A stretch of DNA of 64,000 nt. It comes from Siphonodentalium dalli. Lineage: Eukaryota; Mollusca; Scaphopoda; Gadilida; Siphonodentaliidae. Positions 9,701 through 60,286 of this stretch are shown here, in pieces. The first letter of the stretch is position 1; the number at the start of each line of letters is the position of its first letter. The position numbers and the translations under genes were made by a program. Below the pieces are notes generated by a model. It was given only the letters and a program-made list of their open reading frames with translations, was not told the DNA's origin and made no database searches. The stretch covers positions 217,513,982-217,577,981 of the forward strand of contig CP136063.1 in the NCBI GenBank assembly GCA_032622095.1, in the 5' to 3' direction.

Positions 9701-12700
9701 CGTAAAGATCTGTAAAAAAAAATATCCTCAGAAATATAGAAATATATTAAGCTCGTCATCTAAACTTTAGTGGGCCAGCTTAATTTCGACGAGTTTCATA
9801 AAGAACTCATTCAATTCACCTACATTATCGAATCATATTGAATCAGCATTCTTCGAATGACAGACACACTATTTGCAGACTTGATGGAGAGCTATTGAAT
9901 CCTTAGTTTTATTTGCTAACTTTGTAACAACATTGTATCAGGATATAACCTAACTATAGATGTGGGACTGTCCCAGTGGGACTAAGGATACACTGCAGTG
10001 TAATTGAGCTACATTAAGGGTAGCCATATTAACATATACAAGCTCGGACAAAATTATGCATGTTGAAATGTGGTCTCGTTTCTCTCTGGAATGAGTTATG
10101 TAGCGTCATCCAAATGTCATTTGGCATTACTCACCCTCATTTTTCTCTGGAATGAGTTATTTAGTGTCGTCCACATGTCATTTGATTATTAATCACCCTC
10201 ACTTCTCTCTAGAATGAGTTATTTAGTGTCATCGACATGTCAATTGGCATTACTCACCCTCATTTCATTTTGTTATTACTCACCATCGTTTCTCTGTGGA
10301 ATGAGTTATTTAGCGTCATTCACATGTTATTTGGGTTTACTCACCCTCGTTTCTCTCTGGAATAAGTTATGTGGCATCATCCAAATGTCATTTGGCATTA
10401 CTCACCCTCATTTTTCTCTGGAATGAGTTATTTAGTGTCATCCACATGTCATTTGGCTTTACTCACCCTAGTTTCTCTCTGGAATGAGTTATGTAGCATC
10501 TTCCACATGTCATTTGGTTATTACTCACCCTCGTTTCTCTCTGGATGATTTATTTAGTGTCATCCACATGTCATTTGGCTTTACTCACCCTAGTTTCTCT
10601 CTGGAATGAGTTATTTAGTGTCGTCCACATGTCATTTGGCTTTACTCACCCTCATTTCTCTCTGGAATGAGTTATCTAATGTCGTCCACATGTCATTTGG
10701 CTTTACTCACCCTCATTTCTCTCTGGAATGAGTTATTTAGTGCCGTCCACATGTCATTTAGCTTTACTCACCCTCATTTCTCTCTTGAATGAGTTATTTA
10801 GTGTCGTCCACATGTCATTTGGCTTTACTCACCCTCATTTCTCTCTGGAATGAGTTATTTAATCTCGTCCACATGTCATTTGGCTTTACTCACCCTCATT
10901 TCTCTCTGGAATGAGTTATTTAGTGCCGTCCACATGTCATTTAGCTTTACTCACCCTCATTTCTCTCTTGAATGAGTTATTTAATCTCGTCCACATGTCA
11001 TTTGGCTTTACTCACCCTCATTTCTCTCTGGAATGAGTTATTTAATGTCGTCCACATGTCATTTGGCATTACTCACCCTCGTTTCTCTCTGGAATGAGTT
11101 ATTTAGTGTCGTCCACATGTCATTTGGCTTTACTCACCCTCATTTCTCTCTGAAATGAGCTTACTGATGTGGTTTATGTCTGACATCATAAAAGAGCATC
11201 GTGGTGGCAGGAGGTACTCATGGCCCATAAGTTTAACCAGACCCGGCTTGTTACAGCTGTATTCAGTTAACCGATTTACACACTCCACCGGGACGTCAAA
11301 GCCTGTAAGCAGATGATAATTATTTATAACAAACCAAAGTTTTGGTTCCTACATAGTCTAATATATCGATATCATCAAATCCAACCTTGACTCAGATCAG
11401 AGTATCTCAAGCTTATAAGGAGATACAGTAATGCCCTAAATAATCGACTCCTTAACCATAGCAAAATTATGGGTAATTTTTCAGGATTTAGTTGGAAATA
11501 AGGCTTGTTGCCATTCATCGGAAAGCTCTCACTGAGAGCTTTCCGATGAGTGGCAACAAGCCATATTTCCGACTAAATCCTGAAAAATTACCCATAATTC
11601 AGCTGTGGTTAAGGAGTCGATTATTTAGGGCATTACTGTAGTATGAAATGATGGTTAACCACAATGAACTAATTATGATTTTGGAAACTTCAGATGTTCA
11701 AGGATGATATTAATTGGTTTGCTCTAATAAGATTTGAAACTAGAATGACGCTGCTGCCCATCTGTGTAGGGCATTACTATATAAGAGTGCATTTCCACTC
11801 TGTTCACACTACAACCAGTAGGAATGAACAAGAAGGACTTTTGATAGTCCCCTTATATTTCTTATGATATTAACCCTTTCATGATGGGGGTTCAGGACGG
11901 GTGCTATGCTGGTGCAGCATTAAAGATCATGTGCCAGTGCATTCTCTTATATATGCGTGTCTCCCATAGGGAGCCTCACATATATATAAGAGAATGCACT
12001 GGCTTACAAGATCAAGGAAAATATTGTTAGGCCAATGCACTCTCATGTATGCAAGGTTCACAATGGGAGATTCGTGCATATATAAGAGAATGTATTGGCA
12101 CATGGTTTTCGCAAAGGGCATAATAGTCTAGATCAATATGATACTCAAAGTCTGTCAGACAAAACGATATATGTGCATGATAATACAGTCATTGTTGTGT
12201 ATTCCCAAGATGTGAGACAAAAATACCTTGTTAGAAACCAAAAAATAAACCTGATAAAAATTTGTTCTGAAAATCGTTATTTTGAAAATTAACCAGACAT
12301 ATCATTTCTAAATTAACCATTTCATGATGGGAGCTGTGCTGGTCAAGCATTAAAGACCCTGTGCCAGTGCATTCTATTATCTATGTGGGTCTCCTATATT
12401 TACCTCACATATATAAGAGAATTCTCTGGCTGTCAAGGTAAATATTGTTACGCCAATACATTCTCTTATACATGCGAGGCTCCAGTCATGAAAGGCTTAA
12501 ATAGTGATGCTGTTGCCCCCTCCCCATTTGTTTGAAATAAGTACAATAATGCCCTAAATAATCGATTTCTTAACCACAGCAGAATTATGGGTAACTTTTC
12601 AGGATTTAGTCGGAAATATGGCTTGTTGCCATTCATCGGAAAGCTCTCACTGAGAGCTTTCCGATGAATGGCAACAAGCCATATTTCCGACTAAATCCTG

Positions 12701-23000: not shown

Positions 23001-23017
23001 AAGTAGTTGTAATTATA

Positions 23018-23221
23018 TCACAATATTCACTGTTTGGGAACTTCAATCTGAGTCTATGTCTCCCATAGCAGAAAAAACTTTCCAGAGAAGATGAGGCCAT
23101 GCAGAATGAGGTCCCCAGAGGGTGATTTTGGTAATGCTTGCCCGCTATGCAGGATAGCGTCATTAAATTCAGCTCTGGGGACCTCATTCTGCAAATGACA
23201 GGCACACTAAACTCAGACTTG
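23018..23221. mobile_element. hAT-like MITE, left-truncated at the duplication edge
   Basis: Right half with an intact hairpin, ending CAGACTTG followed by AATTGAAG. The paralogue at 31,154-31,441 has AATTGAAG on both sides, so this copy lost its left end at the segmental-duplication breakpoint. Confidence 0.75.
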
Positions 23222-23451
23222 AATTGAAGAGGTGATTTTTGGTTATAAGCCTTGAAATAGTTTGGCCAAAAAGTTTGGGCAAACTAAAATTTTCTTAGGC
23301 CATTTTCGAAAAATAAATTGGCGTATTTTGCCAGCGACAGAGTTTGCTGATCATATTTTACAAACAGTGATTTTTTAATCACCAGAATATCATAATAGTA
23401 CCATAAATATTGGGACAATCAATTTAGAGGACATATCAAGGAGATGACATC

Positions 23452-23705
23452 CAAGCCTTGAAATAGGGTGTCTGTCATTTGCAGAATGAGGTCACCAGAG
23501 GGTGAATTTAGTGATGCTACCCTGCATAGTGGGCTAGCATCACCAAATTCACCCTCTGGGAACCTCATTCTGCTGAGGTGTAAGCAGAATGAGGTCCCCA
23601 GAGGGTGAATTTGGTGATGCTAGCCCGCTATGCAGGATAGCATCACTAAATTCACCCTCTGAAGACCTCATTCTGCAAATGACAGACACCCTATTTCAAG
23701 GCTTG
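23452..23705. mobile_element. hAT-like MITE inserted at the stop codon of the 23.7-kb ORF
   Basis: 254 bp with near-perfect TIRs CAAGCCTTGAAATAGGGTGT / ACACCCTATTTCAAGGCTTG, flanked by a perfect 8-bp duplication ATGACATC (23444-23451 and 23706-23713). The paralogue has the empty site ATGACGTC at 31,636-31,643. The right duplication abuts the ORF's stop codon. Confidence 0.92.
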
Positions 23706-23713
23706 ATGACATC

Positions 23714-25144
23714 TTATTTTTTTAATGCCAGCGGCTCAGTCACTGTAAATAATGGGGCTGATATTGGTCCTCGCTGGGGAACATGATCTCTCTTAACTTT
23801 CTTGAAAGGACGACAGGGAACACTGCTAGTTTTAGTTTCAAATGCAGGAACAACACTGCCAACTTGCAGAGCAGCAACACTACCGTTACTAACTGTAGAC
23901 AGATGGATTGAGTTGACTTTGCTATAAATTGTGCCGTCATTCCGGCTTTTATGATCCCATGAGCACTGTCGGTTAAACTCTGTCAGGGCGTTGTTAATTT
24001 CATCTAGCATCCTCTTTGAACTAACTTTACGTTTATCAATAAAAGTTCTCAACTGATCCAAGGTCTTTAACGTTCTTTGCACTAACTCCTCAGGTGGAAC
24101 GACATCATCGTCGTCATCACTAGAATTCCCGTCACTATCAATAGGCAAAGCTTCAGGGTCTGCCACAAAAACGTGTTTAACAGGACTAAAAGGACGGGGA
24201 GGATCTTCGCACTGAGGCACATCATAAGCACCTGATTCATCATCACTCTCATCGTCGTCAACACAAAATTTATTATTCGCTATGGCCTTGTCAATAACAG
24301 CCTTCACACACTTCCTCGTTACAGGGAATTTGTTTTCCATTGACTGAAACACTAGATCTGTCGAGTCATTCTCGGTACCACTTATTTCTCTAATGATATC
24401 AGCAATCGGAATACCTAACTGGGCTTTAATGAGGATAGCTTTCTTTACCCACCTTGGTAGAGGTTTTTTCTTTGCAACTATCATATTGATAGGGATTTCA
24501 TGATTATGCAAAGAGACATATTTTACCTCAACAGATCCAGTGGCATGAAAAACCTTGCAAATAATTCTCGCGGGGCAAACAACACCCCTTTTCATGACCA
24601 TGTCCTTATTCTTTTGTGCACGCTGCTCCAACACGGCTTCGATCTGGTCTCTTCTGTAGTGAGGACGAGCTGTGCCGTCATGACAAATGTAGTACATAGT
24701 ATTGTACTCTTTCCCAGCATGCTTACCACCTTGCAACATAAAACAAACGCCCTTATCTTCTTCTTTTTCTTTCCAATCATAGAAATCCTGCTGGGACTTG
24801 AAGGTCAAATTTTTTGTTTCAACTTCGACTGCATGATCTCGCATAAGATGCTCTGTCATGGCCTTCATATGAAAGAAATCTTTAGTACATCCCGGATAGA
24901 TGCATAACGTTAACGTTGATGTTATACTCGTTAAATTAGATGGTAGCTCCTGATTGGGATGTTTTTTCATCCAGTGCAACTTAAGATTTTTCTTCTTTTT
25001 GTAAACAAATCCACACATCTCACACTCCTCAAATTGTCCGATTTTTTCAGCTGAAGCATCATTCTCATCAGTCGGTAACACGATCTCAAAAGTGGTGTCA
25101 TCCGGAATTGAATTCAGCAACGCAACTGTCTGGCTTATCTCCAT
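23714..25144 (-). CDS. C2H2 + FAR1/WRKY-GCM1-like zinc-finger protein, paralogue A
   Basis: 476 codons from ATG at 25144 (MEISQTVALL). Two C2H2 fingers: C41-C44-H57-H62 and C81-C86-H99-H104 (C-x4-C type). Next comes a domain with FKSQQDFYDWKEK, YYICHDG, CPARIICK and HNHEI (about 115-217), whose spaced C154, C190, H213, H215 resemble the FAR1/FLYWCH/WRKY-GCM1 zinc fold of MULE transposases and of host factors derived from them. The C-terminal half is acidic (DDDESDDES, DSDGNSSDDDDD) and ends with a basic KKVKRD nuclear-signal-like motif. No MULE catalytic core is present. A likely acceptor CAATTTCAG lies about 50 bp upstream, so a 5' intron is probable. A one-base A-run difference ends it five codons earlier than paralogue B. 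DNA-binding nuclear role inferred; not identified further. Confidence 0.8.
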   Translation of the reverse strand: MEISQTVALLNSIPDDTTFEIVLPTDENDASAEKIGQFEECEMCGFVYKKKKNLKLHWMKKHPNQELPSNLTSITSTLTLCIYPGCTKDFFHMKAMTEHLMRDHAVEVETKNLTFKSQQDFYDWKEKEEDKGVCFMLQGGKHAGKEYNTMYYICHDGTARPHYRRDQIEAVLEQRAQKNKDMVMKRGVVCPARIICKVFHATGSVEVKYVSLHNHEIPINMIVAKKKPLPRWVKKAILIKAQLGIPIADIIREISGTENDSTDLVFQSMENKFPVTRKCVKAVIDKAIANNKFCVDDDESDDESGAYDVPQCEDPPRPFSPVKHVFVADPEALPIDSDGNSSDDDDDVVPPEELVQRTLKTLDQLRTFIDKRKVSSKRMLDEINNALTEFNRQCSWDHKSRNDGTIYSKVNSIHLSTVSNGSVAALQVGSVVPAFETKTSSVPCRPFKKVKRDHVPQRGPISAPLFTVTEPLALKK

Positions 25145-25296
25145 ATTGGACAATATTGAAAAACCAGCACAGATTCAAAGAACCTGAAATTGAACAAGCT
25201 TGATTTTAATTTTCCAAAGTGTTAGGTCGAAATGACCTACACAATTATGATTGGGAAGGTCATTACGAAATCAAGTAGGTCAAATTGTGGGAAGCA

Positions 25297-25558
25297 TAAC
25301 CCTTTCATGACAGGAGCTACGCTGGTGCAGCATTAAATACCCTGTGCCAGTTAATTCTCTTATATATGCAAGTCTCCAATAGGGAGCATCACATATATAA
25401 GACAATGCCCCGGCTTCCAAGGTCAAGGTAAATATTGTTGGGCCAATGTATTCTCTGATATATGTTAGGCTCCCTATGGGAGACTCGCAAATATAAGAGA
25501 ATGCATTGGCACAGGGTTTTCACAAAAATTCAGGAAGCTCCAGTCATGGAAGGGTTAA
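25297..25558. mobile_element. TTAA-type double-hairpin MITE (CCCTTTCATGA family)
   Basis: 'ataaccctttcatgacagg' start, two hairpins of the 'attctcttatatatgc' type, and 'cagtcatggaagggttaa' end. Shared by both duplication copies (33,203-33,438), so it predates the duplication. Confidence 0.75.
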
Positions 25559-26269
25559 ATCACCAAGTAAACAATATTGTCATGTTATATATTAGTTTTT
25601 GTATATTTGATATGCAGCAGCTACTTGTGTGCCTCTAATTGCTGCTTTTTTGTCTTAAAGACGTATTGTGGACTTCAGTGATTAAAACAGATAAGGTGTA
25701 AGTTCTCTTAGTTCCAGGTAAGTGGACGGACATACATCCAACATTTTCAGATAAACAAAGAGGGATTACTTTTGAACGGAAAATTTGAACAATGTCAATA
25801 ATCCCTTATTGAAAGCCCTTCTGACGACAAACTAGCATACCAAATTTCATTGAGATCCGATAACACATAGTGGGGATATATGAGCAGATGGACAGACACA
25901 TGTAATCCAGTATAGCACATTTGGACAACAAATTCAATGTAAAAAAACCATGGTATTAAGGTGCAAAGTTGCCTCTGGATCAAAATGCCAATTTCTGTAT
26001 ACTGGCCATTTTCTGTTTTATTGCAAAACAAATTAGTGACATATCAAGCATTAGATGTTTATTAAACATATTAACTCTAAATAACTGAAAAAGAAAATAA
26101 TATTTAACTAACCTCAACACTTTCTTTACGAAATACTCATTGATGAGTAGTTCCAACAGATGTTATCCCACAGATTCAATGTACATATAAAAATACTCGA
26201 GACTATTATTTTATAGTCCGGAATCTACATAAAACGTGTAGAGATAAATCAAGGAAAAATATTGAATTT
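25559..26269. other. Duplicated intergenic block, copy A
   Basis: Contains the empty TTAA (25654-25657) that is filled at 33,534-33,955 in copy B, a dispersed ACCAAATTTCATTGAG repeat (25,730-25,910) and the empty GTGACATA site (26,035-26,042) that is filled by the 34,330 element. Confidence 0.7.
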
Positions 26270-26703
26270 CAAGCCTGAGTTTCGTGTGCCTGTCATTTGC
26301 AGAATGAGGTCCCCAGAGGGTGAATTTAGTGACGCTATCCTAGCATCATTAAATTCACCCTCTGGGGACCTCATTCTGCTTATGCCTCATCTTCTCTGGA
26401 AAGTTTTTTTATTATCAAATTTCTATAGACACTTCAAATATATTCTGTTTCTTTTTTAGTTTAGTTTCTCTATATCCCAAAATTGGCAGACAGCACATTG
26501 CATAATCGAGGTTCCTAATGAGTGTAACCCACAAGATTCACCATTTGGGAACTTCAATCTGTCTATGTCTCCCACAGCAGATGATGCCATGCAGAATGAG
26601 GTCCCCAGAGGGTGAATTTGGTGATGCTATCCCGCTATGCGGGATAGCGTCACTAAATTCACCTTCTGGGGACCTCATTCTGCAAATGACAGGCTCAGGC
26701 TTG
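26270..26703. mobile_element. hAT-like MITE, full-length copy present only in copy A
   Basis: 434 bp, CAAGCCTGAGTTTCGTG at the left and a right end GGCTCAGGCTTG, with both hairpins and the AT-rich core. The target duplication is unclear (ATTGAATT / ATTACATT). Confidence 0.75.
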
Positions 26704-26704
26704 A

Positions 26705-26870
26705 TTACATTAGAGTGGTCTATTATTCATCTGGGGGCATGTTGAGGAAATATAAGCAGATGCCAGAATGAAGAAAATATAATATAAGTGCAGAAAAATT
26801 CATATTATTTGGTGGGAAATGTTCAGGTAATAAGTTCAACAAATGACCTTTGGTCATCCAACAGAATAAT
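26705..26870. mobile_element. TTAA-type MITE (CCCTTTNTATACTAAA family), fragment
   Basis: 'gagtggtctattattcatct', 'aatataagtgcagaaa' and 'gggaaatgttcaggtaataa' match the interior of 3740-3980. Ends not seen. Confidence 0.45.
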
Positions 26871-27144
26871 GGGTATAAGTCCACTATGGGCTTATATCAG
26901 AACAAAATAAGTCCAATGTCAATATTTAGGTCCAATATAAACCTATTTGCCTGATGGTATATTGAAGTACAGTAATACTTAGGGCATTACTGTAGCATAA
27001 TATTATTAATATAATAGTAGTATCTGTCTGTCATGTGTGCGAAACACACACAGGGGCCTATGCTAATGCAATGCGGACTAAAGGCTCCCAAAAGGACCCT
27101 GTTTCAACTAGATTTTTCTTAAATCAAAAAAGATATGACATATT

Positions 27145-27295
27145 TAAACCTGGTGTAGTTGCTGTTCAAATGTGGTGTAATTGCCATATGGCCATGTTGT
27201 ACTTGACCTTTAGCCAAAATGCTCAACTGAAGTTATAAACCTGGACACCACGGCCGAACAACATGTTCACCATGGTATCAGTGGACACAATGTTG
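27145..27295. repeat. Diverged copy of the 37.7-kb TIR element
   Basis: 'tgtagttgctgttcaaatgt', 'ccatatggcc' and 'gacaccacggccgaa...atcagtggacac' parallel 37,870-38,030. No clean ends. Confidence 0.4.
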
Positions 27296-27751
27296 TGGCA
27301 AAAGGGGTATTAATTGGAGTGAAATACTCAAGCATCGTAGAGTGAAAATGAATCCACAATCTTGGTGCATGCAGTTGGCGAATGGCAGGTAACCAAAACT
27401 GAGTACCACGATTCATTTGGGAATAATACAACAGGGATGGTTGTCTCAGTGTTTCTCGTGCACATATAGTTGCAGTTATTGTTATGTTAATTAGCTGCAA
27501 GTGTTCCTCTCTGCGCTTAGTGACGTGTAAACAATATGGCATCGACCAATTCAGAATAAGTTTATGGCATTGTGAGATTGATTAAATAGTTGGGAGATTG
27601 CATGCAAGAGATGACTATTTTTTATTTTAATTTTGGAATGCATAATATTACGTTCTTATTACAGATAATGTATTTGCTTGTTGGAGGTAATGGGTACTCA
27701 CAAATAAATTGAATCAGTCGTGATTAAATTCCCTCCAAAATGTTACAAATA

Positions 27752-27861
27752 CAGTAATGCCCTAAATAATCGACTCCTTAACCACAGTAGAATTATGGGT
27801 AATTTTTCAGGATTTAGTCAGAAATATGGCTTGTTGCCATTCATCGGAAAGCTCTCACTGA
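27752..27861. mobile_element. Mariner-like palindromic MITE, half copy
   Basis: TA-flanked CAGTAATGCCC left arm, ending at the hairpin centre 'gctctcactgaaaa'. The right arm is missing. Confidence 0.7.
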
Positions 27862-27927
27862 AAATCCAACTCATAACCAGTCATAATAATTCTATATCCA
27901 TATGAGTATAGTACTTGTAGCGCAAAC

Positions 27928-28223
27928 ATGGATTCATCAAAATTCGTTTCATGGTATGATCGAAAGTTAGATTTCATACTCGAAGAGTATACAAATAGTG
28001 AATGTTTTCACAAAAGATATCACCAAGAATACCAGTGAATTATGTACTGCAACAACAGTTTCCGTTGATAATTCTGAGTGCAAATCACTGATACACGACA
28101 GTCCTAATTATCAAAGTGTTGGCGAATAGGAGTACGTTTGTCCATCCTGTGACAAAGTTTACAAATCAAGGACTGGTTTGAGGGGGCACATAATGAACAA
28201 ACACGGATTACAGATCATCAACA
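27928..28223 (+). pseudogene. C2H2 zinc-finger exon, decayed (copy A)
   Basis: Opens with ATG (MDSSKFVSWYDRKLDFIL...), shifts frame near 27,995-28,010, and meets an in-frame TAG just before a clean C2H2 finger (YVCPSCDKVYKSRTGLRGHI with NKH: C-x2-C-x12-H-x4-H). It ends at a donor-like ACA|GTAAGT. Either the TAG is an intron-acceptor boundary ('gcgaatag|gag') or the exon is dead. The broken upstream frame favours a pseudogene. Paralogue at 35,922-36,006. Confidence 0.55.
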
Positions 28224-28649
28224 GTAAGTGTGAGTGTGTGCAGGGCTGGAGGGCTGGCTTTAGAAACACCAAATTATTATCACTCAGAGTAAATATAAAT
28301 TACTTGATTAACAATGCAGAGAAAACTGCCACTGGACAAGACAAGTGATAAAACATTATAAACCTGTGCATCAAAAGTGGAACATGAAAATAAAATTTGA
28401 TTCTACATTCTAGTACATATATATATTCTCGCAGCTGGGAAATATTCAGACCTTTTCTCAAGATGAGCGAATTTACTGAAGAAATGTCACCCACCCCTCA
28501 CCAATAAACGTGACATCTAAAACCCAAATAATTTATATTTGAATATCAGTACAATAATAAATGTACAATGTATCTTTCACATTTCAAATTATACCTACAT
28601 GTAGTAATAACATTTTGCATGTTCTCAAATGTCATAATGTAACAATATA

Positions 28650-29935
28650 CCAATAACATGATTTTGGTGGGCGTTATGGTTTATTAATGGCCCAACAGGA
28701 ATGATTAACAGCCCGAGGACCGCTAATAGGCCCGAGGGCTGTTAATCATTCCTGGAGGGCCATCAATAATGCCCGATAATATCATGTTATTACTATTATT
28801 ACCACGCACACGTACTGTTATTTAATGCCAAAAGTTTACCATTTTTGTTCATTTCACAAACAATATATAAGAACGCCAAGGTGACTGTTGCATGCCTGCA
28901 CAGCTGTCGAACTGAACACGTCGGGCGAACTAAGCCACTTGCACCCCTCAGTCCAAGAAGCAAGCCTTCACTCCAAACTGAGAGTTCACAAACTTAATAC
29001 ATGTATTAAGTTTACTGGGAACCTATTTGCTCATCTTCTTATTTCTGATAAAATATTTCTGATAACCATGGTGACCGCGGTCCCTCAAGTGATCAGAACT
29101 GTATGGGGTGTCTATATATAATAACACGAAAATAGGATAAATATTCGAGGTGGAGTCCAAAACCATTTTCCCCAAACCGGATGCGGGCCGCAGGCGTTAA
29201 TGAAAATTTGTTTCATTAACGCCCGTGGCCTGCTTCCGGTTATCGCACCTTGGTAATTATGGTGTTTTAACGCCCTGGAAAACTATGTTAATATACTAGA
29301 GAACGTCCGGTAAAGTGGTAATAATATAACAATAACATGATTTTTTAGGGCGTTATGGTTTATTAACGGCCCGGCTGGAATGATTAACAGCCCAAGGGCC
29401 TATTAGCGGCCCGAGACGAAGTCGAGGGACGCTAATAGGCCTGAGGGCTGTTAATCATTCCAGAGGGCCGTTAATAAACCATAATGCCCGATGAAATCAT
29501 GTTATTACTATTATTGCCACAGTTTTGGACATTTGACCCATTTGAGGATTTAGTGGAATAATGAAGTAGATTAAGATTAAGAACATTTAAATTTGATATC
29601 ATTTGACTTGTCAGCTGACATGGACTCTCGAAAATAGGACAGGGGAAAAACCAGCATTGGAGACGAGTAACAACCAATGAGAGGTTGACAGCTAAAATTA
29701 TCAATGCATACTTACATTATTTTCTTGAAATAAACATACCAGATCGGAAGTTGAAGGGACGTAACTCTCGCGATAATAAACGAGATATATAGTTTCCGGG
29801 CGGCGGGCCGATAATGAACTAGGCTTCTCATTATCGGCCCGCGGTCCGCTGTTTTGGTAACAATACGCTATTTGGAACACCCCGAAAAACATTATCAATG
29901 GCCTAGAGAACGCCCTATAAAGTGGTAATAATATT
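28650..29935. mobile_element. Tandem pair of foldback elements (AACATGAT...AGGGCGTTATGG)
   Basis: Unit 1 about 28,650-29,325 and unit 2 about 29,326-29,935. Each begins 'caataacatgatttt' plus 'gggcgttatggtttatta' and ends 'agagaacg..c', 'aaagtggtaataatat'. Each holds nested GC-rich palindromes ('gaatgattaacagccc' / 'gggctgttaatcattc', 'gcgttaatgaaa'). Copy B of the duplication lacks the whole block. Confidence 0.65.
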
Positions 29936-31150
29936 AGTTAGTTCCAGCTCCCATCAAGAAAGGGTTTAGGGACCATTGAGAACACTGAAACTAAACAAAT
30001 AATCGATAAGTTATAAGTTGAGAAAATGACAATGGAAATGTGCACGATGGGAACCGCAAAAACAGGTCTAGCCGGTAACATATATATAGAACATGTAGCT
30101 AGTGTCATCACTTCAACTGTTAATGTCCGTGAGGGGGATTTGAGCATCTATTGGGCGAGGCTCTGCCGAGTCCACTAGATGCCAAATCCACCGAGCGGAC
30201 ATAAACAGTTTAAGCGACAACATTAGCTGCATATTTTATTTATCCATCGCACAACACTTGCCTTTGTGATGTATATCTGTCATTTTCCTCTGTTTTACCT
30301 CCGTTACTTCGATTTGACCCTTATATTTATTAGGTCAAGCAAACTAATTAGCATTCATGACATGCAAAAACCGGAGTGCAGCTTAGAATGAAATAGTTTG
30401 TTGTGTTTTTTTTATAGTTATTCTAAGCTGGCCTTGCACTAATGGTTTATAGATGTTTTGTAGCGAAAACACATATCCATTTACGAATTTTCTATCAATT
30501 GCAGTGAATTATGGATGATAAAAATGTCCCAAAATCACAATGACGTCATTTAGGTCAGTTGACATCCCAAGTTACCTGTGCAATCCAGAGGCAGCAAATC
30601 AAATTGTAGGTCACGTAGGTGTGAATATAATGATATTGAACATATGATGCCTGTTATAGGTTGTAAATAATATTTGCATATGCAATTACATCATGAAAGT
30701 AGTACTAGCTTAATAAAGCTTCGTTGACCTAATAAAGTTACATTGACGTAATAAACGTAAGGTTTATTAGGCAGGCTTTATGTAGACAATAGAGGTAGTA
30801 GATAAATCAACACAAATGAGTACAGATTTGCCAAAACGGTCTTATTTTGAGACCAGCAGTGAATTTTGGTCACTTGCTTAAGAAAGGACACAGATCTGGT
30901 GACTTGTCATCATTGTTTTAATAAGTATAAGCAAGTGTTGTTTATCCACACAACTGCATATTAACAGTTAATGAATGTACAGGCAGCCCTTTTAATTCAG
31001 ATTGTTTGGCTTCGGCAATCTGCTACGGCAACCCTTTACCGTGGCCCAGTTTGCTTCAGCAAATGGCTTCAGCATTGCCGATTGCCGTAGCCAATAATGA
31101 GGGCTGGTACAGGTACTAGTAAGGGTTTCATGGATATCTGAAAACAATTG
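29936..31150. other. Single-copy stretch between the duplicated blocks
   Basis: Holds a hairpin at about 30,113-30,215 ('ctgttaatgtccg' / 'cggacataaacag' with inner 'gcatcta / tagatgc' and 'ggatttg / caaatcc') and a small GC-rich inverted block at 31,010-31,100 ('ggcaatc..gctacgg'). No gene recognised. Confidence 0.45.
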
Positions 31151-31153
31151 AAG

Positions 31154-31441
31154 CAAGTCTGAGTTTAGTGTGCCTGTCATTCGCAAATAGCGGGCTAGCA
31201 TCACTAACTTCACCCCATGACCTCATTCTGCTTTGGCCTCATCTTCTCTGGAAATTGTCAATATTCACCATTTGGGAACTTCAATCTGAGTCTTTGTCTC
31301 CCATAGCAGTTGAGGCCATGCAGAATGAGGTCCCCAGAGGGTGAATTTGGTGATGCTAGCCCACTATGCAGGATAGCGTCACTAAATTCACCCTCTGGGG
31401 ACCTCATTCTGCAAATGACAGGCACACTAAACTCAGGTTTG
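31154..31441. mobile_element. hAT-like MITE with perfect 8-bp duplication
   Basis: CAAGTCTGAGTTTAGTGTG ... CACACTAAACTCAGGTTTG, flanked exactly by AATTGAAG at 31,146-31,153 and 31,442-31,449. Internally shortened (288 bp) relative to the ~430-bp form. Confidence 0.92.
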
Positions 31442-31482
31442 AATTGAAGAGGTAATTGCTGACTATAGGCCTTGAAATAGTT

Positions 31483-31560
31483 TGGCCAAAAAGTTTAAAA
31501 TTTTCTTAGGTTATCTTCGAAAAAAATTGGCCAATTTGGCCAGCGACAGAGTTTGCTGAT
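31483..31560. mobile_element. Decayed hAT terminus downstream of the zinc-finger ORF
   Basis: 'agtttggccaaaaagttt', 'ttcgaaaaaaattggccaat' and 'ttggccagcgacag' parallel the right end of the 59.4-kb hAT ('agtttagccaaaagttt', 'ttggctaccgacag'). The same relic lies at 23,262-23,333 in copy A, so it predates the duplication. Confidence 0.5.
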
Positions 31561-31627
31561 CATATTTCACAAACAGTGATTTTTTAATAGTACCATAAAT
31601 ATTGTGACAATCAATTTAGAGGACATA

Positions 31628-33082
31628 TCAATGAGATGACGTCTTATTTTTTAATGCCAGCGGCTCAGTCACTGTAAATAATGGGGCTGATATTGGTCCT
31701 CGCTGGGGAACATGATCTCTCTTAACTTTCTTGAAAGGACGACAGGGAACACTGCTAGTTTTAGTTTCAAATGCAGGAACAACACTGCCAACTTGCAGAG
31801 CAGCAACACTACCGTTACTAACTGTAGACAGATGGATTGAGTTGACTTTGCTATAAATTGTGCCGTCATTCCGGCTTTTATGATCCCATGAGCATTGTCG
31901 GTTAAATTCTGTCAGGGCGTTGTTAATTTCATCTAGCATCCTCTTTGAACTAACTTTTCGTTTATCAATAAAAGTTCTCAACTGATCCAAGGTCTTTAAC
32001 GTACTTTGCACTAACTCCTCAGGTGGAACGACATCATCGTCATCATCACTAGAATTCCCGTCACTATCAATAGGCACAGTTTCAGGGTCTGCCCCAAAAA
32101 CTTGTTTAACAGGACTAAAAGGACAGGGAGGATCTTCACACTGAAGCACATCATAAGCACCTGATTCATCGTCACTCTCATCATCGTCAACACAAAATGT
32201 ATTATTCGCAATGGCCTCGTCAATAACAGTCTTCACACGCTTCCTCGTTACAGGGTATTTGTTTCCCACTGGCTGAAACACCAGATCTGTCGAGTCATTC
32301 TCTGTACCACTTATTTCTCTAATGATATCGGCAATCGGAATACCTAACTGGGCTTTAATGAGGATAGCTTTCTTTACCCACTTTGGTAGAGGTCTGTTCT
32401 TTGAAGCTATCATATTGATAGGGACTTCATGATTATGCGAAGAGACATATTTTACCTCAACACATCCAGTGGCATGAAAAACCTTGCATATAATTCTCGC
32501 GGGGCAAACAACACCCCTTTTCAGGATTGTGTCCTTATTCTTTTGTGCACGCCGCTCCAACACGGCTTCGATCTGGTCTCTTCTGCAGTGAGGACGAGCT
32601 GTACCGTCATGATGACAAATGTAGTACATAGTCGTGTACTCTTTTCCAGCATGCTTACCACCTTGCAACGTAAAATAAACGCCCTTCACTTCTTCTTTTT
32701 CTTTCCAATCAAAGAACTCCTGCTGGGACTTGAAGGTCAAATGTTTCGTTTCCACTTCGACTGCATGATCTCGCATAAGATGCTCTGTCATGGCCGTCAT
32801 ATGAAAGAAATCTTTAGTACATCCTGGATAGATGCATAAATTTGATGTTATACTCGTTAAATTAGATGGTAGCTCCTGATCAGCATGTTTTTTCATCCAG
32901 TGTGTCTTAAGATTTTTCTTCTTTTTGTAAACAAATCCACAGAACTCACACTCAAACTGTCTGATTTTTTCAGCTGAAGCATCATTCTCATCAGTCGGTA
33001 ACACGATCTCAATAGTGGTGTCATCCGGAATTGGATTCAGCAATGCATGGACTGTTTGGCTTATCTCCATATTGGACAACAT
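31628..33082 (-). CDS. C2H2 + FAR1/WRKY-GCM1-like zinc-finger protein, paralogue B
   Basis: 484 codons if started at MLSNMEISQ (ATG 33082); the ATG shared with paralogue A is at 33070. Same architecture as A: two C2H2 fingers, the CPARIICK...HNHEV zinc fold, acidic middle, and KKVKRD near the end. Differences are mostly conservative substitutions plus small in-frame indels (for example CHHDG versus CHDG, QTVHALL versus QTVALL). It has an extra C-terminus NKTSSH because the A-run is one base shorter. The upstream frame stays open across a probable acceptor CAATTTCAG|GTTTTTC, so a 5' intron is likely. Two intact frames after duplication suggest coding constraint. Confidence 0.8.
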   Translation of the reverse strand: MLSNMEISQTVHALLNPIPDDTTIEIVLPTDENDASAEKIRQFECEFCGFVYKKKKNLKTHWMKKHADQELPSNLTSITSNLCIYPGCTKDFFHMTAMTEHLMRDHAVEVETKHLTFKSQQEFFDWKEKEEVKGVYFTLQGGKHAGKEYTTMYYICHHDGTARPHCRRDQIEAVLERRAQKNKDTILKRGVVCPARIICKVFHATGCVEVKYVSSHNHEVPINMIASKNRPLPKWVKKAILIKAQLGIPIADIIREISGTENDSTDLVFQPVGNKYPVTRKRVKTVIDEAIANNTFCVDDDESDDESGAYDVLQCEDPPCPFSPVKQVFGADPETVPIDSDGNSSDDDDDVVPPEELVQSTLKTLDQLRTFIDKRKVSSKRMLDEINNALTEFNRQCSWDHKSRNDGTIYSKVNSIHLSTVSNGSVAALQVGSVVPAFETKTSSVPCRPFKKVKRDHVPQRGPISAPLFTVTEPLALKNKTSSH

Positions 33083-33202
33083 TGAAAAACCTGAAATTGA
33101 ACAAGCTTGATTATAATTTTCCAAAGTGTTAGGTCGAAATAACCTACACAATTATGATTGGGAAGGTCATTATGAAATCAAGTAGGTCAAATTGTCGGAA
33201 AC

Positions 33203-33438
33203 ATAAAGCTTTCATGATAGGAGCTGCGCTGGTGCAGCATTAAATACCCTGTGCCAGTGGATTCTCTTATATATGCGAGTCTCCCACAAGACAATCCCCT
33301 GACTTGCATGGTCAAGGTAAATATTGATAGGCCAATGTATTCTCTTATATATGCTAGGCTCCCTATGGGCGACTCCCATATATAAGAGAATGCATTGGCC
33401 CAGGGTTTTCACAAAGCTCCAGTCATGGAAGGGTCAAA
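33203..33438. mobile_element. TTAA-type double-hairpin MITE (CCCTTTCATGA family), copy B
   Basis: Orthologous in position to 25,297-25,558. The first hairpin is partly deleted ('gagtctcccacaagacaat'). Confidence 0.7.
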
Positions 33439-33533
33439 TCACAAAATAAACAATATTGTCATGTTATATATTAGTTTTTGTATATTTGATATGCAGCAGC
33501 TACTTGTGGGCCTCTAACTGCTGCCTTTTTGTC

Positions 33534-33955
33534 TTAACCCTTTACCCAACAAACCGGCCAAAACCGGCCAAATAAAGCTTCAACAGCCTAAAATATCTTC
33601 GGTCTGTCTCAATAGAACCATACAAATATGGATATCATTGGAACCGGCTCCTTGACCACATTGTGATAGTTACAGTTATGCCCTGTGCCAATGCATTCTC
33701 TTATATATGCGAGTCGACCATAGGTCGCCTCGAGTCGACCATAGGTCGCCTCTCATATATAAGAGAATGCATTGGCCTAAAAAAAAATCTTTTTTTAACA
33801 CTTTTTACCATTTTTTCTTACATTCTTTAACAATTTTATAATTTTTAATGTGTTAAGCCAATGCATTCTCTTATATATGCGAGGCGACCTATGGTCGACT
33901 CGCATATATAAGAGAATGCATTGGCACAGGGCCCTTCTGTTGGGTAAAGGGTTAA
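33534..33955. mobile_element. TTAA-flanked double-hairpin MITE, copy 4, with empty site in paralogue
   Basis: TTAACCCTTTACCCAACA ... TGTTGGGTAAAGGGTTAA inserted in 'gtcTTAAagac'. Copy A has the single TTAA at 25,654-25,657. The first hairpin loop carries an extra internal repeat ('gagtcgaccataggtcgcct' twice). Confidence 0.93.
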
Positions 33956-34329
33956 AGACATATTGTGGACTTCAGTGCTTAAACAGATAAGTTATAAGTT
34001 CTCTTAGTTCCCGATAAGCGGATGGACAGATATCCAACATTTTCAGATAAACAAAGATGGATTACGGAAACATTTGAACAATGTCAATAAACCCTTATTG
34101 AAAGCACTCCTGATGACAAACCTGCATACCAAATTTCATTGAGATCCGATAACACATAGCAGGGATTTATGAGCCGACGGACAGACACATGTAATTCAGT
34201 ATAGCCCATTTGGACAAAAAATTCAATGTAAAAAACCCTGGTATTAATGTGCATCAAAATGTGGATCAAAATGCAAATTTCTGTATACTGGCCATTTTCT
34301 GTTTTATTGCAAAACAAATTAGTGACATA

Positions 34330-35219
34330 CACCCCATGCATCCGGATGTGCTCGTAGTGGAAGACATGCTCGTGGCGGAATAACCACATGGCCCGCAATT
34401 TGCACACCGTTCACGGTTAGACACATGTTGCACCGAAACCAACACATACCAGTGGTTGACGGTGGTGGTACTATTTGTGGCTATAATTTACCCAACTATA
34501 CATCAAACTTCTTTAAACATGGACGCAGTTTAATCCTATTTTACCGGGAAGTTAGGCCAAAAAGTGTGGCAAAATTTGCATTTCTTACATAAAATTACGA
34601 TTTCCGTGGTAAAAGCCCAGACAATATAGTATTTGCATACATTGCTATTTCCGCGGATATTCCCTTAATATAATAGACGACATTTTCAGTCATGTTTCTA
34701 CATTTTCCATAGTAAAAAATTACCATATATGCAGGTCATAGCAAGAACATATGGTATGTCTATAGCAGTGGTTTTACGTTTGCTATAGACATGCCCCAAA
34801 ATCAAGTGAGTGCCTCCATGGAAATTAATTTTTCCGGCACTAATATGATTGACATCGCAAACATGTCCAGTTCATTTTGAAGCTAAGACATCATACTTTG
34901 AGAGACTGTATGTGATATAATGTGTCAATGCAAAGATTCATTAAAATTTGATAACACTTATATCGAGTAAGTATTTCAGGTCATAATTTTCGTATAAAAC
35001 CCGATTATCGAACAGTAATATGCAAATTGCGGAAACCACAACCACTCATTTCTGTAGACCGATTATCGCTGTTAACGTTTAAAAAAAATCAAGGTAAAAT
35101 AAACCGTGTTTTTATGAAATAACTTACGACAACTAAAGACGATGTGCAAATCGCGGGCCATGTGGTTATTCCGCTACGAGCATGTCTTCCGCTACGAGCA
35201 TGTCCGGATGCATGGGGTG
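34330..35219. mobile_element. 890-bp element with ~80-bp TIRs (CACCCCATGCATCCGGA)
   Basis: Ends CACCCCATGCATCCGGA / TCCGGATGCATGGGGTG, inverted for about 80 bp including 'gcgggccatgtggttattcc'. The empty site in copy A reads 'tagtgacatatcaagc'. Flanking direct repeat is ACATA if the TIRs are complete, or up to GTGACATA if they overlap the target. No ORF. Superfamily not resolved. Confidence 0.85.
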
Positions 35220-35341
35220 ACATATCAAGCATTAGATGTTTATTAAACATATTAACTCTAAACAAATAAAAAAAATTAAAAAAGATTTAACTAACCTCAA
35301 CCCTTTCTTTACGAAAAACTCTTTGATGAGTAGTTCACCTG

Positions 35342-35780
35342 CAGTGTTCGCGCTGTTGGTGGCCAAATTGGCCAATGGCCAATCTTTTTTGAAAATTCAA
35401 ATTTTGTTTACCCCAATTTGAGACGGAAAGCTAATTAAAAGCGCTGAATAGATCGACAGTCCAGACAAAGTTAGGCGACGAAAGTATTTCGTACTTCAGA
35501 GATATCGTACCGTAACGGCCCAATAAATAGGTGGATTTTTGTTTATACGTGGTCGATGACACCGACTATGTAAACATGTATGCTTTGAAGAGAGTTGTTA
35601 TCTGAGTGAGCACAATGAATAGGTGAATACCTAGTGATGATGCTGTTGTTTTATGGAGTTTATTTTGTAATGTCCAATAAATTGGCGGATCGAAATAGTA
35701 TACATCATTCGCATTCACTGCACATAATCAAATTTCATGAGACAGCAACAGGTAAGCTCTAACATTTAACCAGCCTAATC
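35342..35780 (+). mobile_element. Terminus and 5'UTR region of a hAT element
   Basis: CAGTGTTCGCGCTG, then repeated 'ggccaa' motifs, 'gaaagctaattaa', 'aagcgctgaatagatcgac' and 'gcgacgaaagtatttcgtac' match, in reverse, the right part of the 59.4-kb hAT. The match resumes at 'acagcaacaggtaagctcta', including a donor-like AG|GTAAGCTCT, after about 230 bp absent from the 59.4-kb units. Right end not found. Copy B only. Confidence 0.7.
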
Positions 35781-35921
35781 CTTTTTTTTTTTTTTGCTTA
35801 ATCTGTATACATGTACTGGTTATGTAGTCTGCAAGATAAAATACCTAAATGCATTGTCGCTTAATTGGATGTACCGGCGAGCAGTTCTTAACTGAATGGT
35901 TTTGTGATGTGTCTTAAACTG

Positions 35922-36006
35922 CATCCATCCTGTGACAAGGTTTATATATCAAGGAGTGGTTTGAGGGGTCACATAATGAACAAACACGAATTACAGAACA
36001 TCAACG
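35922..36006 (+). pseudogene. C2H2 zinc-finger exon, decayed (copy B)
   Basis: HPSCDKVYISRSGLRGHI with NKH and donor AACG|GTAAGT. The first zinc-ligand cysteine of the finger is lost (Cys to His) and the upstream exon part found in copy A is absent. Paralogue of 27,928-28,223. Confidence 0.55.
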
Positions 36007-36110
36007 GTAAGTGTGAGTGTGTGCTAAATGCATTTGTTATGTAATTTCTATGCAGGGCTGGACGGCTGGATTTAGAAACACCAAATTATTATTACTCAGA
36101 GAAAATATAA

Positions 36111-36702
36111 ACTAGAGGTGTGACTGTCCCAATGGGACTACGGATACCCCCCTTTAAAATACTAAGATGTTTCACATGTCAGTAAACATTTAGTTAAAAT
36201 AATAAAATAACAGTTCCCATTGCAGGTGTACAACCATAACCCTAATCTTAAACCTATTGACCAAAAAATGTAGGAATAAAAGCTTGGACAAAATTATGTA
36301 TGTTGCGAAAAAGTCGAAAAAGGGGAATAACTCCACCAAAAAATGTCGGACAGACGTCATAATCGCAGGTGCACAAGTTCCCATGGTACTAAATATCTGT
36401 GCCACGTTTTAAAAAAATTGACCGAAAATGTAGGAATAAAAGCTCGGACAAAAGTATACATGTTGCGAAACTTTTCTAAGTCGAAAAAGGGGGGATAACT
36501 CCACCAAAAAAAGTCTGACAGACGTCATAATCGCAGGTGCACAGGTTCCCATGGTGGTTGATGTCTGTGCCAAGTTTCACGGAAATTGATCAAAAAACGA
36601 CTGAGAAAAAACTCTGGACAAATTTGTGTCCACGGACGGACGACGGACGGACGGACAAGCTGACTCCAGTATACCCCCCCTAACTTCGTTGCGGGGGGTA
36701 TA
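36111..36702. mobile_element. 592-bp insertion ending GCGGGGGGTATAA, with empty site in paralogue
   Basis: Starts 'ctagaggtgtgactgtccc' and ends 'cggggggtataa'. TATAA is repeated at both edges and single in copy A ('aatataaattacttg'). Contains two ~180-bp modules ('aaaaggggaataactcca', 'gacagacgtcataatcgcag') and 'ggacggacggac' runs. Start-type sequence also at 9,963-10,060. Class unknown. Confidence 0.75.
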
Positions 36703-36991
36703 ATTACTTGATTAACAACGCAGAGAGAACTGCCACTGGACAGTGGACAAGACATGTTATTCAAGAAGTGATAAAACATTATAAACCTGTGCACCAAAAG
36801 TGGAACATGAAACTAAAATTTGATTCTATCGTTTTAGTACATACATATATTCAGGCAGCTGGGAAATAATATTACCTTTTTCTCAAGAGGAGTGAATTTA
36901 CTGAAGAATTGTCACACCCCTCACGAATAAACGTAATATCTAAAACCCAAATAATTTATATTTGAATATCAGTATCATAATAATAAACATA

Positions 36992-37324
36992 CCGCTATTC
37001 TCAAAGTAATTGACCAGAAAAACGGGGTGATACCCCGGTCATGACCACGGTGATACCGGTAATAAACGGTAGCTGTATCGAGGCGGTCATGGCAGTGGAA
37101 TTACGGTATTGGGCGATGATACCGCGGTCTTTTAGCGGGCACCGCATTAATTTTTTTGAATACCACAGTGATTTTCATGGAACACTTTGAGGGGAGGTAT
37201 TTACTCCCACATACGTTAACAAGCGGTATCAGTACCGCGGTATTGGAGGATACCGCGGTATAGTACCGCAGTATTAACGGGGTGACACCACGTTGCTGGT
37301 GGTCAATTACTTTAAGTATAGCGG
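36992..37324. mobile_element. 333-bp TA-flanked TIR element with empty site in paralogue
   Basis: CCGCTATTCTCAAAGTAATT / AATTACTTTAAGTATAGCGG inverted, flanked by TA. Copy A has 'aaatgTAcaatg' uninterrupted at about 28,565. The interior is rich in 'taccgcggta' palindromes. Tc1/mariner-type targeting inferred. Confidence 0.88.
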
Positions 37325-37395
37325 TACAATGTATCTTTCACATCTCAAATTATACCTAGTAATTGCATTTTTCATATTCACAAATGTCATAATGT

Positions 37396-37745
37396 AAAAA
37401 TATCAGTTAGTTCCCCCTGAACATGGTTACAAATAAAGAAGATAAATTTTATTTTTTATTTTTATTTTTACTCAAATTATTCTCAGTGAAATATTCAATT
37501 GCCACTACATGTGTTTCACGCTATTGTGTTTGTTCTGATGAGATAATTTTGGGACATTTAAAAAGTATTAAAAAAAAATTCTATCTTTGTGAGTTCAATT
37601 TTCAGTTTTTCACATGGTATAAATAAAGAGCATTTCTCACAACCTTCCTGGAATATTATAACTATATTTATCTATAGTTAATGAATCCATTTTGCACACA
37701 TGTACATATCCACACAATTATTGATTTAAAATTTACATACATGTA
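37396..37745. other. Nothing recognised
   Basis: AT-rich sequence right of the duplication edge. A 67-codon plus-strand open frame is low-complexity and I do not believe it. Confidence 0.3.
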
Positions 37746-51186: not shown

Positions 51187-51777
51187 TTAAAGGGGTACTG
51201 TACGCCATTTTCATTAAATTTCCGGTGACAACAACGATCTAATATCGATAATATATAGAAACATAAGTAATTTGAGTCGAAGATGTATTCTGTAAACGCT
51301 CAGGTTAATAGGCTATCTTAAAATTTAATAATTTAAAAGTTAATAATTTGATATAAATTGAATTTATGACTGGAGCCATAAAATGGCGTCAATTAAATTA
51401 CGAATTTGCGTAATCAAATAAAGTAAATGAGGGATACTGGCTTGTTAAACCGATCGCACACACGATCGCTTAAAATATTATGATGATACAGGGAGAACAC
51501 TCAAGCCACTCACTGACTAGCGACGATACAATAACTTAAATGATTATATGGGACTAGTATGCCTATAATATAACTTTTATTTGATTCATTTGGTTGAAAA
51601 CTGTACAAAAATTACCCGACAACGACAATTTGTATTTTTGCATTCCGGTAAATTTGTCATCCGTTACACTACTTCGTACTCAACAGACTTTCAAATAATG
51701 AAAAAAGTGTTACCTTATTCTCAGACTCGGAGACTATAGAAACCAACAACAACATTTGGCGTACAGTACCCCTTTAA
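51187..51777. mobile_element. TTAA-flanked element (AGGGGTACTGTACGCCA family), copy 1
   Basis: TTAA + AGGGGTACTGTACGCCA ... TGGCGTACAGTACCCCT + TTAA, 591 bp, no ORF. The second copy (54,630-55,220) has the same length and high identity, so both are recent. Confidence 0.9.
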
Positions 51778-51835
51778 GTGGGAAAAAAAATAAAACAAAA
51801 TGATAATAATTTGATGGTGTTGTGAAATCTTAAAG

Positions 51836-54629: not shown

Positions 54630-55220
54630 TTAAAGGGGTACTGTACGCCATTTTCATTAAATTTCCGGTGACAACAACGATCTAATATCGATAATATATA
54701 GAAACATAAGTAATTTGAGTCGAAGATGTATTCTGTAAACGCTCAGGTTAATAGGCTATCTTAAAATTTAATAATTTAAAAGTTAATAATTTGATATAAA
54801 TTGAATTTATGACTGGAGCCATAAAATGGCGTCAATTAAATTACGAATTACCGTAATCAAAAATAGTAATTGAGGGATACTGGATTTTTAAACCGATCGC
54901 ACACACGATTGCTTAAAATATTATGATGATACGGTGAGAACACTCAAGCCACTCACTGACTAGCGACGATACAATAACTTAAATGATTATATGGGACTAG
55001 TATGCATATAATATAACTTTAATTTGATTCATTTGGTTGAAAACTTTACAAAAATTACTCGACAACGACAATTTGTATTTTTGCATTCCGGTAAATTTGT
55101 CATCCGTAACATGACTTCGTACTCAACAGACTTTCAAATAATGGAAAAATTGTTACCTTATTCTCCGACTCGGAGACTATAGAAACCAGCAACAACATTT
55201 GGCGTACAGTACCCCTTTAA
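54630..55220. mobile_element. TTAA-flanked element (AGGGGTACTGTACGCCA family), copy 2
   Basis: 591 bp, same ends as 51,187-51,777 with TTAA on both sides. The two copies differ by scattered substitutions only. Confidence 0.9.
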
Positions 55221-57580
55221 ATGCGACAAATAGAGAGTAATCAGTTGGTTTCGATGATTGCGTAAAATAATTCACCAGGGGAGCTGGCCTTGCTGGGTTA
55301 TATTTTTATCAGTTGTAATGAGGCAAGACACTTAGCATACCTAAAGAATAAAGGAATATGAGTTATGGGGAGACATTTTCAGAACTTTAAATTGTTTTTA
55401 TGTATACCCATACCACAGTATGGAACACATAGTGTCAACATTTGGATTGATCACTCTTCGTTTGTTCATCTGTCTGTTCGTCTGTACGACCATAGACACT
55501 TTACACATGGTGCGATAATGCAAACATTTTCTATCCGATCAGAACCAAATTTTGTATGAGTTTTTCAGCCCAAAATACAGATCGAATATGAGTTTGATCC
55601 TATTTTTTTTTATGGAGTTATAGACCTTTTTTTTTTTAAATAACTGTTTAAAAAAAAGAAGAAAGATTGAATTCCTTTCTTAGTTTAACACACAAAAGAA
55701 AAAAAATATATATTAAAAAATAAATATAATAGAATATTTTTTGTTTAAATAATTAAAACAAATATTTTTGCCCTAGCAATGCTCTTGTTTTTGGTTATAA
55801 ACAGGAACATTTTACATAAAGTTCCCAAATGAGGTCGATGCTTGTGCGACTATTTTATGATACAATCGATAAAGTATATCACTGATCCTAATTGGTAAGC
55901 AGACCTTTAAAAAAAAATGGCAGGTTTTTGATGAAATGTTAAAAAAAAACCTGCTATTTAGATTTACAGGGCCAGTTGGGTCAGCAGAAACAAAGCTCTT
56001 TTTAGGCCTAACATATCATGTATATGCCTTGTTCAAGTTTGTTACAACTTTTTGTACTAGCACAAAATATAGGGCAGGTTCCAATTCTGGTTCTGCCCGC
56101 CAATTTTCACCATATGTATGGACCTAGCTTTTTGTTGGAATTTACATTAAATTTTCGTTTCCGGATTAGTCGGATTCCTTATGTCGAAAAAAATGGTCGA
56201 GCGTTTTCGGAATGTTAAAAGCGATATGAGAACAGTTTCTATACCACCAGTGTGTCTATTTTCAAAATCTACCTGTTTCCAGCTTGATATTTTAGTGGAA
56301 ACAGGTTTGTGTGAGGCTTTTGTTTGTGTACCCCTCTATTTTCCCCCATCCACCTGGTAATAAAAACATGCTATTACGCATAGCAAGTTCGGTAAGTGGC
56401 TTTCTTTGTTCTTAGAAATCGAAAACCATGGAGAGATCTTGCCACAAATTACTTAATTACATATCTTAATGTGGAATTTTATCATAAAATCATCAGATGA
56501 ATTGTATTTATGACTGCATTTTCAATTTTCTTTCCCAAATATTAAGGCATTGTATATTCTTAAAATCAGCTAGATCCCATATAGACGAACATGAACAATC
56601 TACAAGGATAGCTTGATCATATGCCACAAACAAAACTTCGATACATCGATTTTTGGTAAAGATATCACAGAAAATCTAACCCTACCCCCACCCTCACTGA
56701 TTTCACAAGTCAGATTCCTTTGGTCGAAAACAACGGTCGCGCAATTTCGGATTGTCTAAAACGACATGCGAACGGTTTATTTATCAATAGCGTGTCTACT
56801 TTCATAGTTTACCTGTGTCTAGTTGAAAATTTATTGGAAAAAGGTGTTTTTGGACTGTTTTAAGAATTTAAAGAGCGTTTGCTTATTATACAAATAGTAA
56901 TCCTCATAACTAACCTTCTGGTGGATGTGCGAGTTGAAATTAACAAAAGTATCAAATATAGCGGTCTACTTTCAGAGTCTACTTGTTTCCAGTCTGACAT
57001 TTTAGTGGAAACAAATTGTTTGGACGGTTTAAAAAATTTAAAGAGCGTTTCCTGAGTATACAGATATTAACTAACATGATTAGCCTTTTCATGAATTGTG
57101 CGAGTTGAAATTATTTTTGAGAATGATGTCGTCAGATAAGTCTCCGCGGGTAGTGTACTACAGTTGCGAACAAAACTAACGTTGGACCCTATATTGAGTT
57201 TGACAATTTACTCAAATGTTCACATTGGTGGAACTTAATGGCTATCATATATCATGTATGCATGGCTCTTACATGTAATATATCGTAACTACATGTTAGT
57301 TCACCAAATTAACTTGCAATATAGTCAGGCCACCAGATACAGTTGTTGATAAAAATGTGGTTCACATCAATCACATACATCACAATCACGTGTTTCAGTT
57401 GTAATGTCCACTATTCTACAAATGTAATGTTTATCATGACTACAATTTCAGGATTTCGTTGTAAAATTGGTTGATTGTTTTTTCATCAATTGACAAAATT
57501 AATGTTTATTGCCAGGACGAAGTACCGCATAATACGGAGTTGTTTGGTAACAATTCTGCGAGTCATATTTATGTAAGTGT
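55221..57580. other. Repeat-derived intergenic stretch without clean boundaries
   Basis: 55,540-56,140 carries a dispersed family ('aaccaaattttgtatgagtt', 'cccaaaatacag', 'ggttctgcccg', 'ttttcaccata..tatgg') that recurs at 63,745-63,830. 56,150-57,060 holds three loose repeats of 'gtctactttca..gtctac', 'tgtttcc' and 'aaagagcgttt'. No gene seen. Confidence 0.45.
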
Positions 57581-60165: not shown

Positions 60166-60286
60166 CAGCGTCAATGCACACTTTACAAAATATTGCTTTC
60201 TTCACATTGTCATGATTCAACCACGGTCGGTTTAATGTCCATGTGGTTTTGAATGTCCGTCTTGTGAAAACTAAAGATGATTGCAT
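60166..60286 (-). pseudogene. First coding exon of a ZNF862-type hAT transposase, unit 1
   Basis: ATG at 60286, MQSSLVFTRRTF then TWTLNRPWLNHDNVKKAIFC, KVCIDAG, ending at donor GCTG|GTATAT. The W...RPWL..D...K.IFC..C pattern is the BED/TTF-like zinc finger that opens ZNF862/KIAA1586-type hAT transposases. The upstream open frame contains an 18-bp doubled module (TVQRETRS twice). The rest of the transposase (RNase-H core) is missing. Confidence 0.65.

Follow-up and report, generated by a model that had tools for sequence, protein, structure and literature searches.

We analyzed a 64,000-nucleotide stretch of the Siphonodentalium dalli genome (hereafter the window; C3:217,513,982-217,577,981, with positions below counted within it) from an assembly of 2.23 Gb in nine sequences. 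A stretch of about 5-6 kb that carries an uncharacterised zinc-finger gene occurs there twice, side by side and in direct orientation, with both copies on one chromosome-scale sequence of 301 Mb. The two copies, A and B, and their open reading frames (ORFs) are listed here; a strand is given wherever one was assigned.

23,014-29,945: copy A, private insertions included; homology to B stops at about 29,945
31,154-37,414: copy B, private insertions included; strict two-copy homology from 31,259
23,714-25,174, minus strand: copy A ORF, 486 aa between stops or 476 aa counted from MEISQTV; a single C2H2 finger
31,628-33,151, minus strand: copy B ORF, 507 aa between stops or 480 aa counted from MEISQTV; identity to A about 90%

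An earlier note on this DNA had described two direct copies about 8.2 kb apart, and this proved correct: comparison of the window with itself, together with segment alignments, reproduced a collinear chain of direct homology (A 23,021-28,648 / B 31,259-37,403), with an offset between A and B of 8,238 bp at the left and 8,761 bp at the right. The homology extends further left than position 23,222, where the note began, into an older MITE. When both blocks were aligned and the divergence of their backbone computed, a check that the note had proposed, we found 231 differences in 3,279 aligned bases over seven aligned segments (93.0% identity) and a pooled non-coding K2P distance between A and B of 0.091 (145/1,689). 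Together with an ORF that exists in two copies, these values are those of a segmental duplication, which is defined by low copy number and by homology of at least 90% identity over a minimum of 1 kb. As a qualification, the sequence at the right of the block is part of a dispersed family and is not private to the A/B pair. The flanks of A and B are unrelated on either side, and inspection of the block edges revealed no TSD or terminal repeat bounding the whole block. The copies are separated by a spacer of about 1.2 kb (29,947-31,146) that is partly repetitive and contains a repeat of its own; self-comparison revealed no counterpart of it left of A or right of B within the window.

The duplicated gene

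Both copies of the ORF are open and intact. When the ORF protein was searched in six frames against the entire genome and all 29 candidates were scored, it had exactly two matches, A and B, which argues for a local low-copy gene duplication rather than a mobile element. The substitution pattern (dS 0.089, dN 0.045, dN/dS 0.51, bootstrap 0.32-0.87) indicates that the pair has apparently remained open under purifying selection on average. Pfam and PDB searches returned single C2H2 fingers only, and the AlphaFold model had a mean pLDDT of 34 and no usable fold. A one-base difference in an A-run causes the C-termini of the two ORF copies to differ (LALKK versus LALKNKTSSH). At this same end of the gene, a MITE found only in A lies 8 bases past the ORF stop (23,706-23,716), and in B the empty site of that MITE falls within the last codons of the ORF.

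In addition, the coding end of the ORF contains a run of 251 bp without a single difference between A and B, a length reached in none of 20,000 shuffles, although the run was spotted post hoc. Specifically, the run shows 0 changes at about 54 synonymous sites (about 5.6 expected), compared to about 25 changes at 242 synonymous sites elsewhere. This suggests that gene conversion may have made the two copies uniform over the final ~250 bp of coding sequence. Alternatively, the identity could reflect coding constraint. Given these signs of conversion, the A/B pair is not a clean clock.

We also observed other repeats in the window. Two 601-bp direct repeats (51,187-51,787 and 54,630-55,230), 96% identical and 3.4 kb apart, both begin TTAAAGGGGTACTGTACGCC; they could be two separate insertions or else flank a single element as its terminal repeats. 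At 10,075-11,159, a unit of about 61 bp is repeated in tandem. Finally, a direct tandem duplication of about 1.33 kb (59,399-60,732 / 60,732-62,066; 99.6% identity) holds a stretch related to part (35,426-35,519) of a repeat found only in copy B, which is described below.

Insertions shared by the copies and private to one of them

Two MITEs are shared by A and B:

23,014-23,221: older MITE with 8-bp TSD, A part; left-truncated; right TSD AATTGAAG at 23,222-23,229
31,154-31,441: the same older MITE, B part; both ends intact; TSD AATTGAAG at 31,146-31,153 and 31,442-31,449
25,297-25,560 in A and 33,204-33,434 in B: TTAA-type MITE, 8.4-8.7% from its family consensus

The right junction of the older MITE is the same in A and B, so that its insertion predates the duplication. 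The left part is absent from A, where the MITE begins only at 23,014, and the left end of A was probably truncated at or after the duplication. This MITE resembles hAT-type MITEs in its 8-bp TSD, its shortness, its lack of coding capacity, and its TIRs. The TTAA-type MITE, being present in both copies, is likewise older than the duplication; its A and B versions are 0.107 apart. In C7:110,854,787-110,883,341, the same TTAA-type MITE recurs at least seven times running, each time a nearly constant 4,057 bases further on, a run that appears to be a long-period satellite or tandem array carrying this MITE.

The remaining features are confined to one copy:

23,452-23,705, A only: MITE CAAGCC..GGCTTG; 8-bp TSD ATGACATC at 23,444-23,451 and 23,706-23,713
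28,649-29,929, A only: 1,281-bp hairpin/tandem repeat; AATAT on either side, empty AATAT in B at 37,399-37,403
33,538-33,951, B only: MITE beginning CCCTTTACCCAACA; TTAA target, empty TTAA in A at 25,656-25,659
34,330-35,219, B only: element CACCCCATGCATCC..GGATGCATGGGGTG; TIRs of about 81 bp; 5-bp TSD ACATA at 34,325-34,329 and 35,220-35,224
36,112-36,703, minus strand, B only: Pearl-like HINE, that is, a non-autonomous Helentron; inserted at TT without a TSD; A is empty between 28,299 and 28,300
36,992-37,324, B only: TA-target MITE; empty TA in A at 28,564-28,565
35,342-35,926, B only: repeat that replaces A 26,151-28,143 (about 2 kb) and cuts the zinc-finger exon
27,921-28,590, plus strand, in A: zinc-finger exon segment; exon EYVCPSCDKVYKSRTGLRGHIMNKH followed by GTAAGT (splice donor); left part absent in B

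The earlier note had explained the differences between the copies by five insertions, each with an empty site in the other copy. We found all five empty sites within a few bases of where they had been placed, and all five insertions are real. The list nevertheless lacked the A repeat at 28,649-29,929 and the B repeat at 35,342-35,926. We consider the former a sixth private insertion, a less certain call because AATAT is low in information. The note had also held that the exact ends of the five insertions are fixed without any library. This failed for two of them, namely the element at 34,330, which has a 5-bp and not an 8-bp TSD, and the element at 36,112, which has no TSD; the other ends agree with those of further family copies.

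The A-only MITE at 23,452-23,705 has its empty site, ATGACGTC, at 31,636-31,643 in B. In its family, the TSD matches at 8 of 8 positions in 9 out of 12 genomic copies and at 7 of 8 in one more. By this 8-bp TSD it would be a hAT-type MITE, a candidate superfamily assignment, and it is similar to such MITEs in its shortness, absence of coding capacity, and TIRs as well. The B-only MITE at 33,538-33,951 shows the TTAA target duplication that is characteristic of piggyBac/Kolobok-like MITEs, as do nearly all of the 12 family copies.

For the B-only element at 34,330-35,219, the empty site is ACATA at 26,039-26,043 in A. We found that the TSD is exactly 5 bp in 11 out of 12 genomic copies of the family and matches at 8 of 8 positions in none, which refutes the 8-bp TSD GTGACATA. 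The spurious reading arises because the terminal GTG of the element (CACCCC to GGGGTG) equals the GTG preceding the target. Assignment of this element to hAT was rejected, as it lacks the 8-bp TSD. Near-full-length copies of this 890-bp family, 96-98% identical, number at least 40 in the genome. It is a speculative and improbable idea that the element represents a recently active family of a 5-bp-TSD superfamily rare in animals, such as the Transib/RAG type, with an autonomous partner perhaps still in the genome. Transib/RAG-type ends also start with CAC.

Helentrons and HINEs are recognised by insertion at TT without a TSD, by a palindrome on the 3' side, and by subTIRs that lie 2-4 nt inside the 5' terminus and about 38-60 bp inside the 3' terminus (PMC4067079), and the Cg_HINE of oyster contains GTCY/GTCC microsatellites (PMC7492417). 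For the B-only element at 36,112-36,703, the 12 genomic copies that we compared refute TATAA as a target duplication. Instead, TT flanks the element on both sides in all 12 (one with an internal 1-base change), and the empty site in A is consistent with the absence of a TSD. On the minus strand the element begins TTATACCCCCC, with an adjacent inverted repeat near the 5' subTIR. The 5' end carries the subTIR TT|ATACCCCCC. Measured from the 3' end, the second subTIR, GGGGGGTAT, lies at about 40 bp and the palindrome GTCCCATTGGGAC at about 14 bp. The interior holds GTCC repeats and a central tandem repeat with a 168-bp period in 2.1 copies. Judged by this architecture, the element is a Pearl-like HINE. 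Its structural likeness to Pearl of bivalves and to Cg_HINE comprises the subTIRs and the inverted repeat next to the 5' one, the microsatellite of GTCC units, the tandem core (about 168 bp, 2.1 copies), the palindrome, and the TT target without TSD.

The B-only element at 36,992-37,324 is flanked by TA at either end, as are other copies, and has inverted ends (CCGCTAT / ATAGCGG), as expected for a Tc1/mariner-like MITE, although the independent sites behind this are few, since most other copies share one flank. Specifically, 10 out of 11 fetched genomic copies share a left flank of more than 1.3 kb, so that the 99.7%-identical copies cannot be independent insertions in these 10 instances. The near-identical copies of the TA element are thus mostly one insertion inside a larger repeat and offer no evidence for independent bursts of the TA family. 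The host repeat itself has been recently amplified on several chromosomes, with homology over more than 1.3 kb to the left and mostly more than 1.4 kb to the right of the MITE at 97-99.8% identity; the part that was read contains no long ORF.

In copy B, the repeat at 35,342-35,926 ends on its right at the exact point where homology to A resumes. The segment that it cuts short, 27,921-28,590 in A, contains a C2H2 exon and belongs to a dispersed family with about a dozen loci at 64-85% identity. A keeps the ~2 kb, and with it the first half of the zinc-finger exon, which other members of the family possess too, so that the loss occurred in B.

Relative ages of the insertions

If the private elements inserted after the duplication, they are predicted to lie nearer to their family consensus than the per-lineage divergence of the backbone, and shared elements farther from it. 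The per-lineage backbone divergence is about 0.046 (half of 0.091). For each of the five insertions that the earlier note had listed, the genome contains at least 39 further matches to its repeat family, and their distances to the family consensus are 0.020, 0.019, 0.003, 0.003, and 0.005. The youngest are those at 33,538, 36,112, and 36,992, which deviate from their consensus by no more than 0.5%. The shared MITE, in comparison, is 0.084 from its consensus in A and 0.087 in B. It is important to point out that each consensus was built from the closest matches, which biases these distances downwards, and that the shared MITE was handled identically. The prediction held in all 7 out of 7 cases. 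With intact empty sites and distances of 0.003-0.020 against about 0.046 per lineage, we thus agree with the note that the five insertions postdate the duplication. The relative order, that is, which insertions are younger than the duplication, is established. The repeat at 35,342-35,926 does not fit this pattern: its nearest relatives are 77-86% identical, and it does not look young, at odds with the recent insertion of the remaining private elements.

Origin of the duplication and known parallels

We propose, with a probability of about 0.88, that a gene-bearing segment was locally duplicated in direct orientation, and that the copies then independently acquired insertions of mobile elements, small indels, and one larger replacement. 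The homology, the empty sites, the copy number, and the relative divergences are direct observations; the tandem mechanism, the order of truncation, and conversion are inferred. The homologous unit would run from inside the old MITE with the 8-bp TSD, through the minus-strand ORF, to a fragment of the dispersed zinc-finger family. A tandem event would have produced one unit, the ~1.2 kb spacer, and a second unit, with the left end of A truncated later. Two shared MITE insertions would predate this event and six insertions, four in B and two in A, would follow it, and the final 250 bp of the coding region were possibly converted. As the window contains the spacer only once and the spacer has its own repeat, there are two possibilities: loss of the left end from the first unit, or a duplication other than strictly head to tail. 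A simple head-to-tail duplication without later loss is therefore unsupported, and for a clean tandem origin one more deletion or insertion would have to be assumed.

In highly heterozygous animals, haplotypes commonly differ by insertions, and the assembly could in principle have placed two haplotypes of one locus side by side. We consider such an artefact very unlikely, as the copies differ by 9% in non-coding sequence and by a dS of 0.089, lie within a single 301 Mb chromosome-scale sequence between flanks that are unrelated on both sides, and have the left MITE truncated in one copy only. There is even less reason to regard the backbone as a multi-copy mobile element, with A and B as two of its insertions. 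Parts of it are indeed repetitive, namely the shared MITEs and the zinc-finger fragment with its family of about a dozen loci, but the 480-aa ORF matches exactly two places in the genome (six-frame search, 29 candidates scored) and the block has no bounding TSD or terminal repeat. On the grounds of the two-copy ORF, we rejected the block as a single mobile element.

The polarity of the differences could also be reversed, with an ancestor that held all elements and precise deletions from it, since deletion between target duplications can recreate an empty site. This would require five or six independent, base-exact deletions. Moreover, an ancestral element should resemble the shared MITE at 0.085 from its consensus, but the private elements lie at 0.003-0.020, compared to 0.046 for the backbone. 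Precise deletion thus strikes us as scarcely credible, and local duplication followed by insertion remains our preferred reading.

The locus opens no long-standing question. It provides a worked example of how a duplicated segment separates older from younger insertions, in which the shared-element control behaves as predicted. It also illustrates a limit of the method: where a single empty site was available, the ends of the element matched the target by chance and gave the wrong TSD in 2 out of 5 cases, and only other copies of the family settle the ends. The use of a paralogous empty site to prove insertion is established, as for MITEs in Pandoravirus/Acanthamoeba (PMC4495683) and likewise for Helentrons (PMC4067079), and the present locus is a tidy new example of an ordinary kind of event. 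It shares with these published studies the logic and the method of reading insertion polarity, and likewise exceeds 1 kb and 90% identity; it differs from them in that several unrelated families are scored together at one duplicated locus.
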